Below are positions 10,347 to 56,925 of a DNA stretch of 64,000 nucleotides, in pieces. Every line of letters starts with the position of its first letter. Within the stretch, counting starts at the first letter, position 1. Origin of the DNA: Methylopila sp. Yamaguchi (GTDB taxonomy: Bacteria > Pseudomonadota > Alphaproteobacteria > Rhizobiales > Methylopilaceae); NCBI RefSeq assembly GCF_002897035.1, contig NZ_BAUX01000003.1, positions 62,001 to 126,000 of the forward strand, read 5' to 3'. Under the pieces are notes generated by a model that made no database searches, was not told the origin of the DNA, and saw only the letters and a program-made list of their open reading frames with translations. The translations under genes and the position numbers were made by a program.

Positions 10347-10434
10347 GTCATGCCCCGGTTTATCCGGGGCATCCAGGAGATGGAGCGCGCCCGACGACCC
10401 GGCCTGGATTCCCCGGATAAACCGGGGAATGACG
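10347..10434. repeat. Composite two-hairpin intergenic repeat, variant copy
   Basis: Same layout as the repeats near 5.6, 19.2 and 34.5 kb but with other arms: TGCCCCGG-TTTAT-CCGGGGCA (10351-10371) and ATTCCCCGG-ATAAA-CCGGGGAAT (10408-10430), with the shared CGTCAT before, ATCCA between and GACGA after. It lies between convergent gene ends. Part of the second arm recurs near 62511-62542. Confidence 0.75.
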
Positions 10435-10481
10435 AAGCGGTGATGGCCGCTGAGGCCGTCTTCATTGACCGTTTGGCCGTC

Positions 10482-12068
<1,587 letters not shown>

Positions 12069-12104
12069 GAAGGGGTCCTGGAAACCGTTGTCACAGTGCG
12101 GAGG

Positions 12105-13772
12105 CTACGCCGCGGCGGTCCGGCGCTGGGTCTCGTCCAGCCGGCCGAGGCGGTACCAGCGGTAGCCGTAGGGCTCGAGCGTGACATGATGGCGGCCGTC
12201 GGGGCCGGGACGGCTGTGGTCGGTCGACAGCAGATTGACCAGATGGTCCGGCTCGCCCTCCATCCCTCCGCTGCGGAAGGCGACGTCGCAGCCTTCCTCG
12301 CCGAAGTTGTGCAGGAACACCGCGGCGTTGCCACGCCAGTCGTAGCGCATGGCGAGCACGCCCTTCGCGCCCGTGCGCAGGATCTGGTAGTCGCCCCAGC
12401 CGATCTCCGGCGTCTCCTGGCGCATCCGGACGATCCGCTCCAGCCAGTTCAGGAACGAGTTCGGATCGCGCCGCTGCTGCGCCACGTTGACTGACTCATA
12501 GCCGTAGCCGCCACCTGAGATAGCCGGCAAATAAGTTTTTTCGGCCGTGCTGAACCCGCCGTTTTGCTCGTTCGCCCACTGCATCGGGGTGCGAGCGCAG
12601 TAGCGTTCGGGGAGGTCTAGGTCGTCGCCCATGGCGATCTCGTCGCCGTAGCGCAGCACCGGCGTGCCCGGCAGGGCGAACATCAGGCTGTAGGCGAGCT
12701 CAAGCCGGCGACGATCGCCTTTCAGCATCGGGGCGAGCCGCCGTCGAACGCCCCGGTCATAGAGCTGCATCGATTTCTCGGGTCCGAAGGCGTCGAACGC
12801 CGCCTGCCGCTGCTCGTCGGTCAGACGGCCGAGGTCCAGTTCGTCGTGATTCCGCAGGAACAAGCCCCACTGCGCCGTGGGGTAGCCCGGGCGCGTGTCC
12901 TTGAGGGCCTTCTCCAGCGGCGCGACGTCCGCGCTCGCCAGCGCGTAGAACAGCCGCTGGTTGACCTGGAAGTTGAACATCATCTGCATGCGGTCGCCGT
13001 CGTCGCCGAAGTACTTCATGTCGTCTTCGGGGAGGACGTTGGCTTCGGCGAGGATGACGCTGTCGCCCTTGCGCCATTGCAGGAATTCCCGGAACGAGCG
13101 GAGCATCTCGAACTGCTCCTTCGGCCTCGTCACGTCAGCGCCCTTCTCGGCGATCACGAAGGGCACGGCGTCCATGCGGAAGCCGGACACGCCGAGCTGG
13201 ATCCAGAACCCCATGATCTTGAGGATCTCGGCCTGCACCTCCGGGTTGGCGGTGTTGAGGTCGGGCTGGAACTCGTAGAAGCGGTGGAAGTAATAGGCTT
13301 TGGCCTCGTCGTCCCGGGTCCAGGTCGTCTTCTGCACCCCGGGGAAGACCATGCCTTCGTCGGCGTTCTTCGGCTTGGTCTTCGACCAGACGTACCAGTC
13401 GCGGAACGGCGACTTCGGGTCCGCGCGAGCGGACTTGAACCAGGGGTGCTGGTCGGAGGTGTGGTTGACCACGAGGTCGATCAGAACGCGCATACCGCGC
13501 TGCTTCGCGGCGTGGGTGAACTCGACGAAGTCGCCAAGCGACCCGTAGCGCGGGTCGACGTTGTAGTAGTCGGAGACGTCGTAGCCGTCGTCGCGCCCCG
13601 GCGAGGGCTGGAACGGCATCAGCCAGACGGCGGTGACGCCAAGGCCGTGGAGATAGTCCAGCCGGCGCGTCAAACCCGGAAAATCGCCGACCCCGTCTCC
13701 GTTCGAGTCCATGAAGCTCTCGACCGAGAGACAATAGACGATCGCGTTCTTGTACCAGAGGTCCGTGATCAT
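12105..13772 (-). CDS. GH13 enzyme, trehalose synthase-like (maltose alpha-D-glucosyltransferase)
   Basis: A 555-residue GH13 protein whose opening (WYKNAIVYCLSVESFMDSNGDGVGDFPGL) and segments RRDDGYD-like GRDDGYDVSDY, NHTSDQHPWFKSAR and RTPMQWANEQNGGFS match the catalytic part of trehalose synthase. Catalytic residues are Asp201 (GFRMDAVPF), Glu243 (LAEANVLPEDD) and Asp310 (RNHDELDL). No maltokinase domain is fused. It would interconvert maltose and trehalose, a compatible solute; plain alpha-amylase/glucosidase activity is the alternative. A GGAAC-N17-CGTT promoter motif lies 32 bp upstream, consistent with stress-induced trehalose metabolism. Confidence 0.78.
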   Translation of the reverse strand: MITDLWYKNAIVYCLSVESFMDSNGDGVGDFPGLTRRLDYLHGLGVTAVWLMPFQPSPGRDDGYDVSDYYNVDPRYGSLGDFVEFTHAAKQRGMRVLIDLVVNHTSDQHPWFKSARADPKSPFRDWYVWSKTKPKNADEGMVFPGVQKTTWTRDDEAKAYYFHRFYEFQPDLNTANPEVQAEILKIMGFWIQLGVSGFRMDAVPFVIAEKGADVTRPKEQFEMLRSFREFLQWRKGDSVILAEANVLPEDDMKYFGDDGDRMQMMFNFQVNQRLFYALASADVAPLEKALKDTRPGYPTAQWGLFLRNHDELDLGRLTDEQRQAAFDAFGPEKSMQLYDRGVRRRLAPMLKGDRRRLELAYSLMFALPGTPVLRYGDEIAMGDDLDLPERYCARTPMQWANEQNGGFSTAEKTYLPAISGGGYGYESVNVAQQRRDPNSFLNWLERIVRMRQETPEIGWGDYQILRTGAKGVLAMRYDWRGNAAVFLHNFGEEGCDVAFRSGGMEGEPDHLVNLLSTDHSRPGPDGRHHVTLEPYGYRWYRLGRLDETQRRTAAA

Positions 13773-13803
13773 TCGCCCGCCTGCATCCGGTTGCCCCGCG
13801 GTG

Positions 13804-13829
13804 AACGCTGGTCGGCGACGGGGCGTTCC
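13804..13829 (-). promoter_or_regulatory. EcfG-type (general stress) promoter for the GH13 pair
   Basis: On the minus strand the sequence reads GGAAC, 17 bp, CGTT, an exact match to the alphaproteobacterial EcfG/SigT consensus GGAAC-N16/17-CGTT. The -10 edge is 31 bp before the ATG at 13772, a normal leader length. It would drive the trehalose synthase-like gene and the following alpha-glucosidase. Confidence 0.75.
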
Positions 13830-13836
13830 GGCGGCG

Positions 13837-15030
13837 TCACTTCATCAGGCCGGCGGCCTTCAGCGCCTTGGCGATGACGCCCTGCACGTCGATGCGGCCG
13901 CTCCGCCGCGGCTCGGGCTCCATGCGGCCGGCGAAACCGCTGCGGGAGGTTTTGGCGGTCGATGCCGCGGCGGCCGGCCGGTGGGCCGAGGTTGGGCGAG
14001 GAGGCTCGGCGGCGCCGGGCGCGTTGGCAGGGCTGCGCTCCTCCGCGCTCTTGGCGCTCGCTGTGGCGAGGCCCCAGAACGCAAGCACGTCGCGGTTGGC
14101 CGACACTCCGACGTCCAGCATGAAGGGGCCGGGCGTCTCGCCGCGCCGGGCGTCGAGCGCCACGCCGTGGCTCATGCCGGCGACGACGTGCTGTTCGACG
14201 ACCGCCTCGCCGTTCGGGCTGGTCCAGACCCGGCGGGTGCGGCCGCCCTTGCGCTCGACGGTCGGCTTGGCGCCGCCGAGGCCATGGACGTCGAGCCACT
14301 GCTTGACGATCTCGTCGCCGTTGGAGGGAACCACAGTCGAGTCGGCGCCGCCGTGCCAGACGCTGACCTTCGGCCAGGGGCCGCGGTGGTCCGACGAGTC
14401 CCGGACCACGTCGCCCCATTCGCGGGCCGGTCTGGAGGCGCCCTTGTACATGCTCTCGAAGGCCTGCGGCACCGACGACGCCGCCCCGCACGGCAGTCCG
14501 GCCATGATCGCGCCGCCGGCGAAGACGTCGGGATAGGCTGCAAGCAGCGCGGAGGTCATCGCGCCGCCGGCCGACAGCCCGGTGACGAACACCCGGCGGC
14601 GGTCGAGGCCATGCCCGGCGACCATGGTCTCGACCATGGCGCGGATGGAGGCCGCTTCGCCGGCGCCCCGGGCGACGTCCTCAGGATTGAACCAGTTGAA
14701 GCAGCGCTTCGGGTTGTTGCCCCTGTGCTGCTCAGGGTAGAGCACGGCGAACCCGTGCTCGTCGGCGAGGGCGGTCCAGGCCGCGCTGTGCTCGAAGCTC
14801 GCCGCCGTCTGGGTGCAGCCGTGCAGCACCACGACCAGAGCCGATCCGCGCGCCAGCCGGGCCGGCGTGTAACTTCTCATGACGAGGTCGCCGGGGTTGC
14901 CGCCGAACTCGGCGACCGTCGCCAGCCGCGGGTCGCCGGGCTCGCTGCGGGCGCCCGCGCTCCCGCCGTCGAGCGACCACATCTTCAAGAGCGGGTTCAG
15001 TTCCGAGGCGAGATCGCCGAAGCGGGCCAT
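13837..15030 (-). CDS. PHB-depolymerase-family esterase
   Basis: An alpha/beta-hydrolase of about 397 residues from the ATG at 15030 (an ATG at 15054 adds eight residues). The oxyanion segment VVVLHGCTQTAASFE, the nucleophile elbow GLSAGGAMTSALLAAYPDVFAGG and the late catalytic His in AGMSHGVAL fit the esterase PHB-depolymerase family (TIGR01840), which includes extracellular PHB depolymerases and feruloyl/acetylxylan esterases. No clear signal peptide. The C-terminal 70 residues are Ala/Pro/Arg-rich and probably disordered, ending in a short helix. It may cleave storage polyester or other esters; the substrate is not shown by sequence. Confidence 0.8.
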   Translation of the reverse strand: MARFGDLASELNPLLKMWSLDGGSAGARSEPGDPRLATVAEFGGNPGDLVMRSYTPARLARGSALVVVLHGCTQTAASFEHSAAWTALADEHGFAVLYPEQHRGNNPKRCFNWFNPEDVARGAGEAASIRAMVETMVAGHGLDRRRVFVTGLSAGGAMTSALLAAYPDVFAGGAIMAGLPCGAASSVPQAFESMYKGASRPAREWGDVVRDSSDHRGPWPKVSVWHGGADSTVVPSNGDEIVKQWLDVHGLGGAKPTVERKGGRTRRVWTSPNGEAVVEQHVVAGMSHGVALDARRGETPGPFMLDVGVSANRDVLAFWGLATASAKSAEERSPANAPGAAEPPRPTSAHRPAAAASTAKTSRSGFAGRMEPEPRRSGRIDVQGVIAKALKAAGLMK

Positions 15031-15100
15031 GGCGCGTCCAGTCTTTTGGCGCAACGAGCGGGGATGTCGTCGTCGCTAGATCACGTGGGCGCCGCAAAGC

Positions 15101-15133
15101 ACAATTCAATGCTGCGACGCAACATCGAATTGT
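15101..15133. promoter_or_regulatory. Operator-like inverted repeat upstream of the esterase gene
   Basis: ACAATTCAATG and CATCGAATTGT form 11-bp arms with one mismatch around an 11-bp centre that includes TGCGACGCA. It is an AT-rich island 71 bp upstream of the esterase start and 170 bp upstream of the DUF3297 gene. It looks like a regulator site; PhaR-type regulators recognise TGC-N3/4-GCA-like cores, so control by PHB status is one possibility. Confidence 0.5.
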
Positions 15134-15302
15134 TGGGCCGCGATTAGGGCGAGGCTGCGGCGTGCGCCGCGCAAGGTCGCCGTGCGTGGGCGCCCGCCCT
15201 CGGCCCGGCGACTGCGGGCAAAGGGGGCGCTGCGAGGCTTGGCCCAACGGAAGGCTGCGCCTATGGTCCGCCGCGTCTCGCAACCCCCCCGGAGCGCCCT
15301 CG

Positions 15303-30272: not shown

Positions 30273-30560
30273 TCAGTAGCCGGGAACGTCGAAGGTCGAC
30301 GGCAGCGGCCAGCGCTCGAAGCCGCCGGGGCCGCGGGTCGGCGTCGAAGACTGGTAGAGCGCCGAGGTCTGGTAGTCGGCGCCGGTCATGGGGCGCGCGA
30401 CCGTGCGCGTGTTGAGGTAGCTCGGCGCCTTCCGGACCGTGATGGTCACGCCGCCGTCCGAAGACGCACGGTCGCGGGTCTGGGCCGACGCCGTAAGCGG
30501 GACGAGCGCCACGCCCGCCGCAAGGATGAATGCGGCCGTTCCATGCGCAATACCAAGCAT
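30273..30560 (-). CDS. Small secreted protein of unknown function
   Basis: A 95-residue protein from the ATG at 30560, which is preceded by GGAGG at 5 nt (an upstream ATG at 30572 contains that ribosome site). A signal peptide (GTAAFILAAGVALVPLTASA-Q) is followed by a mature part of about 68 residues, VTITVRKAPSYLNTRTVARPMTGADYQTSALYQSS, with no Cys. No family recognised. An exact EcfG-type promoter lies 61 bp upstream, so it is probably part of the general stress regulon. Confidence 0.7.
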   Translation of the reverse strand: MLGIAHGTAAFILAAGVALVPLTASAQTRDRASSDGGVTITVRKAPSYLNTRTVARPMTGADYQTSALYQSSTPTRGPGGFERWPLPSTFDVPGY

Positions 30561-30620
30561 AGCAGCCTCCATGAGGGGAAACGCCGCGTCCCGGGACTGA
30601 GGCGCGCCGGTCATCGAAGC

Positions 30621-30646
30621 AACGTCGTTTCGCCGGCTCCCGTTCC
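30621..30646 (-). promoter_or_regulatory. EcfG-type (general stress) promoter for the small secreted protein
   Basis: On the minus strand GGAAC, 17 bp, CGTT, an exact consensus match whose -10 edge lies 60 bp before the ATG at 30560. Confidence 0.7.
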
Positions 30647-35828: not shown

Positions 35829-35853
35829 GGAACGGCCGTGCGGCGCCGGCGTT
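35829..35853 (+). promoter_or_regulatory. EcfG-type (general stress) promoter for the HVA_TUDOR-DUF6321 operon
   Basis: GGAAC (35829-35833), a 16-bp spacer and CGTT (35850-35853), an exact consensus match, 39 bp upstream of the ATG at 35893. Confidence 0.75.
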
Positions 35854-35892: not shown

Positions 35893-36111
35893 ATGACGAA
35901 GGCTTACGCGGTGGGCGCGAAGGTGTCGTGGAGTTGGGGGCAGGGGAAGGCCACCGGCAAGGTGGCGGACGTTTTTCAGAAGCGGGTCCAGCGGACGATC
36001 AAGGGCTCGAAGATCGTCCGCCGCGCCACCGCCGACAATCCGGCCTACCTCGTGGAGCAGGAGGATGGGGGCAAGGCGCTGAAGTCGCATTCGGAGCTGG
36101 AGAAGGCGTGA
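35893..36111 (+). CDS. HVA_TUDOR-domain protein (DUF2945 family)
   Basis: A 72-residue protein that is one hypervirulence-associated Tudor-like domain: AVGAKVSWSWGQGKATGKVADVFQKRVQRTIKGSKIVRRATADNPAYLVEQEDGGKALKSHSELEKA. The small beta-barrel is basic and may bind nucleic acid or protein. GAGAGG lies 5 nt before the start. Its stop codon overlaps the next start (TGATG), and an exact EcfG promoter precedes it, so the two genes form a stress-induced pair. Molecular function is unknown. Confidence 0.85.
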   Translation: MTKAYAVGAKVSWSWGQGKATGKVADVFQKRVQRTIKGSKIVRRATADNPAYLVEQEDGGKALKSHSELEKA

Positions 36112-55720: not shown

Positions 55721-56866
55721 TCAGGCCCGCGCGGCCTTGAGCGCGGGCCGCTCCTCCCGCGCCTGCTGCTGGCGCGGGTCCGGAGCCGGCTGGCGCCCCA
55801 TGTCGGTCCGCAGCCGCGGCAGCGCGTAGGGGTGATGCTCGGCAAGCCATACGATCATCTTCTCGCGCATCTCGCAGCGCAGGTCCCACGCCTTGGGCGA
55901 ACTGCCCGACGACACCAGCAGGCGCACCTGGATGACGTGCTCCATGGCGTCCGAGACCTGCAGGTTCACGACCTGCCCGTCCCAGAGCGGCGAGGCCCTC
56001 ACCAGCTCCTCCAGCTTCGCCCGCATCAGCGCGATCGGCGCGGCGTGGTCGACATAAAGCATCACCGTTCCGATGATGGAGGCGCCCTCACGGGTCCAGT
56101 TCTGGAACGGCTTCTCGATAAAGTACTTCAGCGGCAGCACCAGCCGCCGCCAGTCCCACAGCCGCACCACGACGTAGGTCGCAGTGATCTCTTCGACCCA
56201 GCCCCATTCGTTCTCCACCACGATTGCGTCGTCGAGCCGGATCGGCTGGGTGATGGCGAGCTGGATGCCGGCGACGAGGTTGGCGAGCACCGGCTGCATG
56301 GCGAGGCCCAGGATGAGGCCCGCGGCGCCGGCGGAGGCGAGCAGCGACACGCCGTATTGCCGCACGCCGTCGAAGGTCATCAGAGTGGCGCCGATGGTGA
56401 CGACGACAAGCAGCGTGACGCCCGCGCGCTCGAAGATCTTCATCTGCGTCAGGTGCTTGCGCGCCAGCAGGTTGTCTTCCGAGTCGAGCTTGAACTTCCT
56501 GAGATAGATGACGGTCCAGATGTGCAGCGCCGTCGTCGCCGCCCAGCCGACCAGGATCATGAAGGCGACCAGCAGGCCGTGGCGGATGGCGTCGCTCTGG
56601 CGGTCGGTGAGCGGCGCCGCGGACGACACGATCGAGAGCGCGAGGATCAGCACGGCCAGCCGCGTCGGGCCGCGCGTGCGGGAGACCAGCGAACGCCAGA
56701 ACAGGCTGCGGTCCGCCACGAACGTCGTGAGCATGCGAAACGCGAGACGGTGGACTGCGATCGCGGCCGCCGCGCCGAGCGCAAGCAGAATGAGGCTGGC
56801 GCCCCAATCGGGAAGCCAGGACAGCCGTTCAGCCGCCCCTTCAACGAGCGTCACCGCTTCGTTCAT
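55721..56866 (-). CDS. Small mechanosensitive channel, MscS family
   Basis: A 381-residue inner-membrane channel with about four N-terminal helices, then the pore and MscS beta domain: SLLASAGAAGLILGLAMQPVLANLVAGIQLAITQPIRLDDAIVVENEWGWVEEITATYVVVRLWDWRRLVLPLKYFIEKPFQNWTR. The tail (TDMGRQPAPDPRQQQAREERPALKAARA) is charged. The ATG at 56866 follows a GGGGGG stretch. Smaller and less ornate than the 796-residue channel in the window. An exact EcfG promoter lies just upstream, so it should rise in osmotic or general stress. Confidence 0.9.
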   Translation of the reverse strand: MNEAVTLVEGAAERLSWLPDWGASLILLALGAAAAIAVHRLAFRMLTTFVADRSLFWRSLVSRTRGPTRLAVLILALSIVSSAAPLTDRQSDAIRHGLLVAFMILVGWAATTALHIWTVIYLRKFKLDSEDNLLARKHLTQMKIFERAGVTLLVVVTIGATLMTFDGVRQYGVSLLASAGAAGLILGLAMQPVLANLVAGIQLAITQPIRLDDAIVVENEWGWVEEITATYVVVRLWDWRRLVLPLKYFIEKPFQNWTREGASIIGTVMLYVDHAAPIALMRAKLEELVRASPLWDGQVVNLQVSDAMEHVIQVRLLVSSGSSPKAWDLRCEMREKMIVWLAEHHPYALPRLRTDMGRQPAPDPRQQQAREERPALKAARA

Positions 56867-56900: not shown

Positions 56901-56925
56901 AACGCGAACGCCGCCATAGGGTTCC
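56901..56925 (-). promoter_or_regulatory. EcfG-type (general stress) promoter for the MscS-type channel
   Basis: On the minus strand GGAAC, 16 bp, CGTT, an exact consensus match with the -10 edge 34 bp before the ATG at 56866. Confidence 0.75.

Follow-up and report, generated by a model that had tools for sequence, protein, structure and literature searches.

The partner switch formed by PhyR, NepR and EcfG is an established regulatory system. The promoter consensus recognized by EcfG has been given as GGAAC-N16-CGTT (PMC7083833) and as GGAAC-N17-20-GTT (PMC6599016). In S. melonis Fr1, an EcfG-dependent gene annotated as "Glycosidases" (#1751) carries GGAAC...CGTT 26 nt before its start (PMC6599016). 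EcfG controls the treS gene blr6767 of B. diazoefficiens but not the paralog bll0902, whose mutant resembled the wild type in its symbiotic phenotype and, under stress, continued to accumulate trehalose (PMC8092242). Our literature search for the locus name bll0902 returned PMC8092242 only, and a search combining Hansschlegelia with trehalose returned no paper on the subject, as judged by titles and the beginnings of abstracts. Three residues of the +1 subsite, Tyr213, Glu320 and Glu324, are indispensable in DrTS, the trehalose synthase (TreS) of D. radiodurans; the site is sealed by Arg148 and Asn253, and the variants E324A and Y213A have undetectable activity (PMC4257617). The motif NHDELTLE was reported to be conserved among ten reported TreS (PMC3797794).

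We analyzed a stretch of 64,000 nucleotides, hereafter the window, for which a preliminary description had placed an exact GGAAC-N17-CGTT 31 bp before a GH13 gene. Pattern search confirmed this match on the minus strand at 13829..13804, where 31 bp separate CGTT from the start codon (ATG at 13772), and the two elements are separated by a distance within the 16-17 bases expected for -35 GGAAC and -10 CGTT (Table 1). The site lies in a 64-bp intergenic gap (13773-13836) behind the stop codon of a same-strand gene resembling PHB depolymerases. Two plus-strand frames (12846-13877 and 13750-15147) overlap the site, both of which run antisense to genes with family matches.

Table 1. Features of the locus and further motif matches in the window
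Feature	Position	Strand	Description
Predicted EcfG-type promoter	13804..13829	-	-35 GGAAC 13825-13829, 17-base spacer, -10 CGTT 13804-13807; exact match
TreS-like GH13 gene, 555 aa	12105..13772	-	ATG 13772; Pfam Alpha-amylase and SupH-like_C
GH13 alpha-glucosidase gene, 528 aa	10482..12068	-	Pfam Alpha-amylase and DUF3459; 36 bp downstream of the TreS-like gene
PHB-depolymerase-family esterase gene, upstream neighbour	13837..15030	-	NF050058 331.7 bits (cut-off 150), PF10503; stop bounds the promoter gap
Motif match, GGAAC-N16-CGTT	56901..56925	-	34 bp upstream of MscS-type mechanosensitive channel gene 55721-56866
Motif match, GGAAC-N16-CGTT	35829..35853	+	39 bp upstream of 72-aa Hva1_TUDOR-domain gene 35893-36111
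Motif match, GGAAC-N17-CGTT	30621..30646	-	6 bp upstream of 113-aa frame 30273-30614, which has no Pfam match

The window contains four GGAAC-N16-18-CGTT matches compared to 1.09 expected, a number reached by 2 of 100 shuffles. Throughout the 4.42-Mb genome, 80 GGAAC-N16/17-CGTT sites were found (56 with N16 and 24 with N17), compared to 30 matches of the reversed pattern (20 and 10, respectively); a lone exact match is thus weak evidence rather than proof, above all with an N17 spacer. A mechanical screen classified 22 of the 56 N16 and 11 of the 24 N17 sites as promoter-like (33 of 80 in total); of the reversed matches, 2 of 20 and 2 of 10 passed (4 of 30). The site at 13829..13804 failed this screen by 0.02 (0.17 versus a cut-off of 0.15), probably due to the antisense shadow frame of a flanking gene. 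Among the other matches in the window, the one before the MscS-type channel gene has a parallel in S. melonis, where MscS-type genes are EcfG-dependent (PMC6599016).

What settles the promoter question is conservation within the genus, rather than the single match. The TreS-like gene is present in 11 of 13 genus genomes and absent from G003 and G011, whereas G007 has two copies, the second of which is frameshifted (L136; counted among the promoter copies but outside the residue counts given below). In each of the resulting 12 copies, a GGAAC-N16/17-CGTT begins 52-62 bp ahead of the start codon, with N16 and N17 spacers in six copies each, and the reversed control pattern is found upstream of none of the 12. 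The mean identity among eight chosen copies is 0.41 over the spacer, compared to 0.80 over the first 840 coding bases. Were the motif a chance match without promoter function, as the 30 reversed-pattern matches and the relative rarity of N17 might suggest, its recurrence at the same place in every copy with diverged spacers would hardly be expected; on this ground we reject that explanation as most improbable. The site is almost certainly an EcfG-dependent general-stress promoter, as far as sequence comparison can indicate.

The genome itself supplies the matching machinery, as it encodes two PhyR/NepR/EcfG sets. One set, on contig C5, comprises PhyR, a ferritin-like (Dps-like) gene, NepR, EcfG and an HWE/HisKA_2 histidine kinase; a second set of NepR, EcfG and PhyR is found on contig C16 (L156, G000:C16:79000-89000). 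The motif is located 17 bp upstream of nepR. It also precedes otsA in all 13 genus genomes (N17 in 11 of them; the reversed control in none), which indicates that N17 is a normal spacing in this genus. Similarly, copy 1 of glgX carries the motif in every one of the 13 genomes, whereas copy 2 carries it in none and serves as an internal negative control. The motifs at otsA and glgX link the regulon to trehalose independently of the gene under study. Taken together with the conservation described above, these observations lend good support to the EcfG promoter reading put forward in the preliminary description.

Contig C5 also bears a cluster encoding GlgX, GlgE, a TreS-maltokinase, GlgB, GlgX, TreZ, MalQ, TreY and GlgP (L153 and L154, G000:C5:1-28000). 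Among GlgX1, GlgX2 and the GlgE side of this cluster, a conserved EcfG-type motif occurs at GlgX1 only; over the first 900 bases of the divergent glgE side of the TreS-maltokinase operon, a single genome of the 13 has an exact motif, which lies near that of glgX. The identity of GlgE was confirmed by Pfam, and NCBIfam gave no match at 1e-60. Elsewhere than at the present locus, the trehalose genes of the genome include those of the TreS-maltokinase fusion on C5, OtsA and TreY/TreZ. A search for GH37 trehalase gave weak partial matches only, in 2 of 13 genus genomes, which makes another outlet for trehalose plausible.

Outside the genus, direct wiring of the TreS-like gene to EcfG appears limited to certain lineages, since the motif lies within 300 bp upstream in just 4 of 80 named relatives. 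Three of these four are the loci of Hansschlegelia plantiphila, H. quercus and H. zhihuaiae, which are identical letter for letter over 4.2 kb to the genus genomes G005, G006 and G012 and hence not independent of the genus count. From these identities, the genus is presumably Hansschlegelia. In further loci of the order, the motif stands as a direct promoter in 2 of 22. This count leaves out L157 (G014, 46% identity, motif at -46), which was rejected as a member because its forward frames contain no HDE motif.

Within 1700 bp upstream, the motif was found in 11 of the 80 named relatives, whereas five control patterns gave 0, 1, 1, 2 and 3 such loci. The 11 loci include four from Rhizobiaceae (L049, L054, L063 and L065), which are related and therefore not independent counts. 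In the three of them with frames listed (L049, L054 and L065), a gene of 325-352 aa separates the motif from the TreS-like gene, and Pfam assigned this gene in L049 and L054 to the luciferase-like monooxygenases. Such a monooxygenase gene stands directly before the TreS-like gene in L049, L054 and L104, the first two from Rhizobiaceae and the third from an Actinomycetota MAG. Two Rhodopseudomonas loci (L041 and L090) have the motif about 546 bp upstream, at a PRC-barrel gene in L041, and these sites may serve the PRC-barrel gene alone. In L067, the alpha-glucosidase gene comes first in the operon, with the motif upstream within 1700 bp. Of the 385 genomes covered by a wider survey of the class, 7 yielded members at E <= 1e-165, and the motif was found within 1400 bp of none of the four new members. 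Overall, the distribution of the motif suggests that TreS-like genes have been wired to EcfG repeatedly.

The 555-aa protein scored 597.5 bits against the curated TreS model TIGR02456, below its cut-off of 678.35, compared to 934.8 bits for the TreS-maltokinase fusion on C5. A search of the PDB returned TreS as the best match at 2e-147, compared to 1e-69 for the next family and 5.6e-69 for alpha-glucosidases. The predicted model (pLDDT of 89.4), which was built from 38 alignment rows out of the members gathered, could be superimposed onto DrTS with a Z-score of 48.5 and an rmsd of 1.9 over 535 residues, compared to a Z-score of 39.0 for the first non-TreS row. The protein thus has the fold of TreS, together with the GH13 catalytic triad. 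An identity as a digestive alpha-glucosidase was rejected, as both sequence and fold are nearer to TreS; the preliminary description had also argued against a digestive glucosidase, and the PDB matches bear it out.

To compare the active site, residues were mapped by alignment to DrTS numbering, with an offset of 2, over 89 clade rows that hold three genomes twice (L031/L126, L032/L131 and L034/L133) and exclude L090 and L099 for their broken frames. The triad (D201, E243 and D310) and the counterparts of Glu320 and Asn253 are present in 89 of 89 rows. The counterpart of Tyr213 (F205) is F in 88 rows, that of Arg148 (G140) is G in 87, and that of Glu324 (G315) is G in 81, D in 7 and A in 1. 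Two of the three essential +1 residues (Tyr213, Glu320 and Glu324) are therefore missing; the 12 TreS rows of the genus all retain Y, R and E at the positions of Tyr213, Arg148 and Glu324. Moreover, where TreS has T, 83 of the 89 rows have an aspartate (D313), two residues before the lost Glu324, and the 555-aa protein reads NHDELDLG in place of NHDELTLE. In a 42-row tree, the TreS-like clade is monophyletic with a support of 98/94, its 29 rows being set against 12 TreS rows that all come from this one genus. It is very likely that the 555-aa protein belongs to a sister family of TreS.

The preliminary description went further and took the promoter as a reason to call the protein a trehalose enzyme. 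This step fails, since a promoter tells when a gene is on but cannot name its substrate: the genes behind the other three motif matches in the window have no known connection with trehalose, encoding the MscS channel, the TUDOR protein and a protein without family. It is homology that carries a trehalose-related reading, which stands as far as the fold and the nearest kin are concerned, but is weakened by the TIGR02456 score and the lost +1 residues. With residues essential in DrTS altered, we regard action on trehalose or maltose as plausible, perhaps probable, from the comparisons at hand, but not as assured.

The best PDB matches of the 528-aa protein encoded downstream are the alpha-glucosidases QsGH13 (7voh) and 3wy1, and its gene is probably the second gene of the transcript. 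A plus-strand frame over the gene pair (10350-12494) has no Pfam match. A relative of the alpha-glucosidase gene follows the TreS-like gene at 9 of the 12 genus copies, and 27 of the 80 named loci have a relative of at least 50% identity within the fetched flank, in varying orientation and across several phyla. The association with an alpha-glucosidase gene noted at the outset is thus real and recurrent. Other neighbours of the clade genes differ and include luciferase-like monooxygenase, PRC-barrel, P450 and M20 peptidase genes.

Three further readings of the enzyme have to be weighed. It might be a true TreS, an ordinary maltose-trehalose mutase making trehalose under stress, in which Asp313 replaces Glu324 in its role. 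The TreS fold and nearest kin, the invariant triad and the counterparts of Glu320 and Asn253 fit such an enzyme, and D313 might rescue it. However, the score lies below the TIGR02456 cut-off, Tyr213, Arg148 and Glu324 are almost uniformly replaced, the corresponding DrTS variants E324A and Y213A are inactive to the limit of detection (PMC4257617), and the genome already has the TreS-maltokinase fusion, OtsA and TreY/TreZ; we therefore consider a true TreS unlikely. An equally unlikely reading gives the enzyme a different glucoside as substrate, such as sucrose or a glucosylated osmolyte, with a link to trehalose by descent only. The separate clade with its own +1 subsite, the varied neighbour genes and the C-terminal domain, which matches the sucrose hydrolase-like SupH-like_C, point in this direction, but the amylosucrase rows reach a Z-score of only 38.2 compared to 48.5 for TreS.

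A broader reading, which we hold possible though rather doubtful, takes the clade as a distinct GH13 group that is not a mutase and forms, with the alpha-glucosidase, a stress-induced module of glucoside turnover. Such a module would have been wired to EcfG several times by differing architectures: directly in Hansschlegelia and Ancylobacter, behind a luciferase-like monooxygenase gene in Rhizobiaceae, behind a PRC-barrel gene at the two Rhodopseudomonas loci, and in an operon led by the alpha-glucosidase gene in L067.

We favour as the probable explanation that a stress-induced sister enzyme of TreS and the adjacent alpha-glucosidase turn over trehalose and maltose, with a presumed enzymatic step. 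Under stress, PhyR would bind NepR and free EcfG, and transcription by RNA polymerase with EcfG would begin a few bases downstream of 13804, covering first the TreS-like and then the alpha-glucosidase gene. The product of the former would be a retaining GH13 enzyme of the TreS sister clade with a rebuilt +1 subsite, most likely acting on glucose disaccharides (trehalose and/or maltose) and probably hydrolysing more than a true TreS. The alpha-glucosidase would split maltose, and together the two enzymes would turn over the trehalose pool supplied by OtsA, whose gene is likewise preceded by an EcfG-type promoter. In this turnover model, transcription, co-transcription, substrate and reaction direction are what we infer; the promoter, its conservation, the EcfG machinery, the fold and the residue changes come from comparison. 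In favour of turnover, PMC3518184 cites a B. japonicum treS mutant with increased trehalose accumulation. Against it, synthesis by OtsA and breakdown controlled by a single sigma factor would amount in part to a futile cycle. Although genes of this clade are readily annotated as "trehalose synthase", they lack residues essential in the studied enzyme. If the stress control is real and recurrent, the Alphaproteobacteria with this gene have a stress step that trehalose models misname.

Compared to the known EcfG/PhyR regulons, the locus shares GGAAC-N16/17-CGTT near the start codon, a genome with EcfG, NepR and PhyR, a motif before nepR, and the trehalose genes otsA and glgX among the likely targets. 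It differs in that the TreS-like paralog carries the promoter, whereas the TreS-maltokinase operon apparently does not. If bll0902, possibly the ortholog of the TreS-like gene, is indeed so, the EcfG wiring in B. diazoefficiens is opposite to that seen here. Compared to TreS (TIGR02456; DrTS, 4tvu; T. terrenum, 5x7u), the 555-aa protein has the same fold, length and triad and the counterparts of Glu320, Asn253 and Arg316, but differs in the counterparts of Tyr213, Arg148, Glu223 and Glu324, in its sub-threshold score, in NHDELDLG versus NHDELTLE, and in having no maltokinase domain. The GH13 alpha-glucosidases (QsGH13 and 3wy1) belong to the same superfamily and count the downstream gene among them, whereas the 555-aa protein stands far nearer to TreS than to them.
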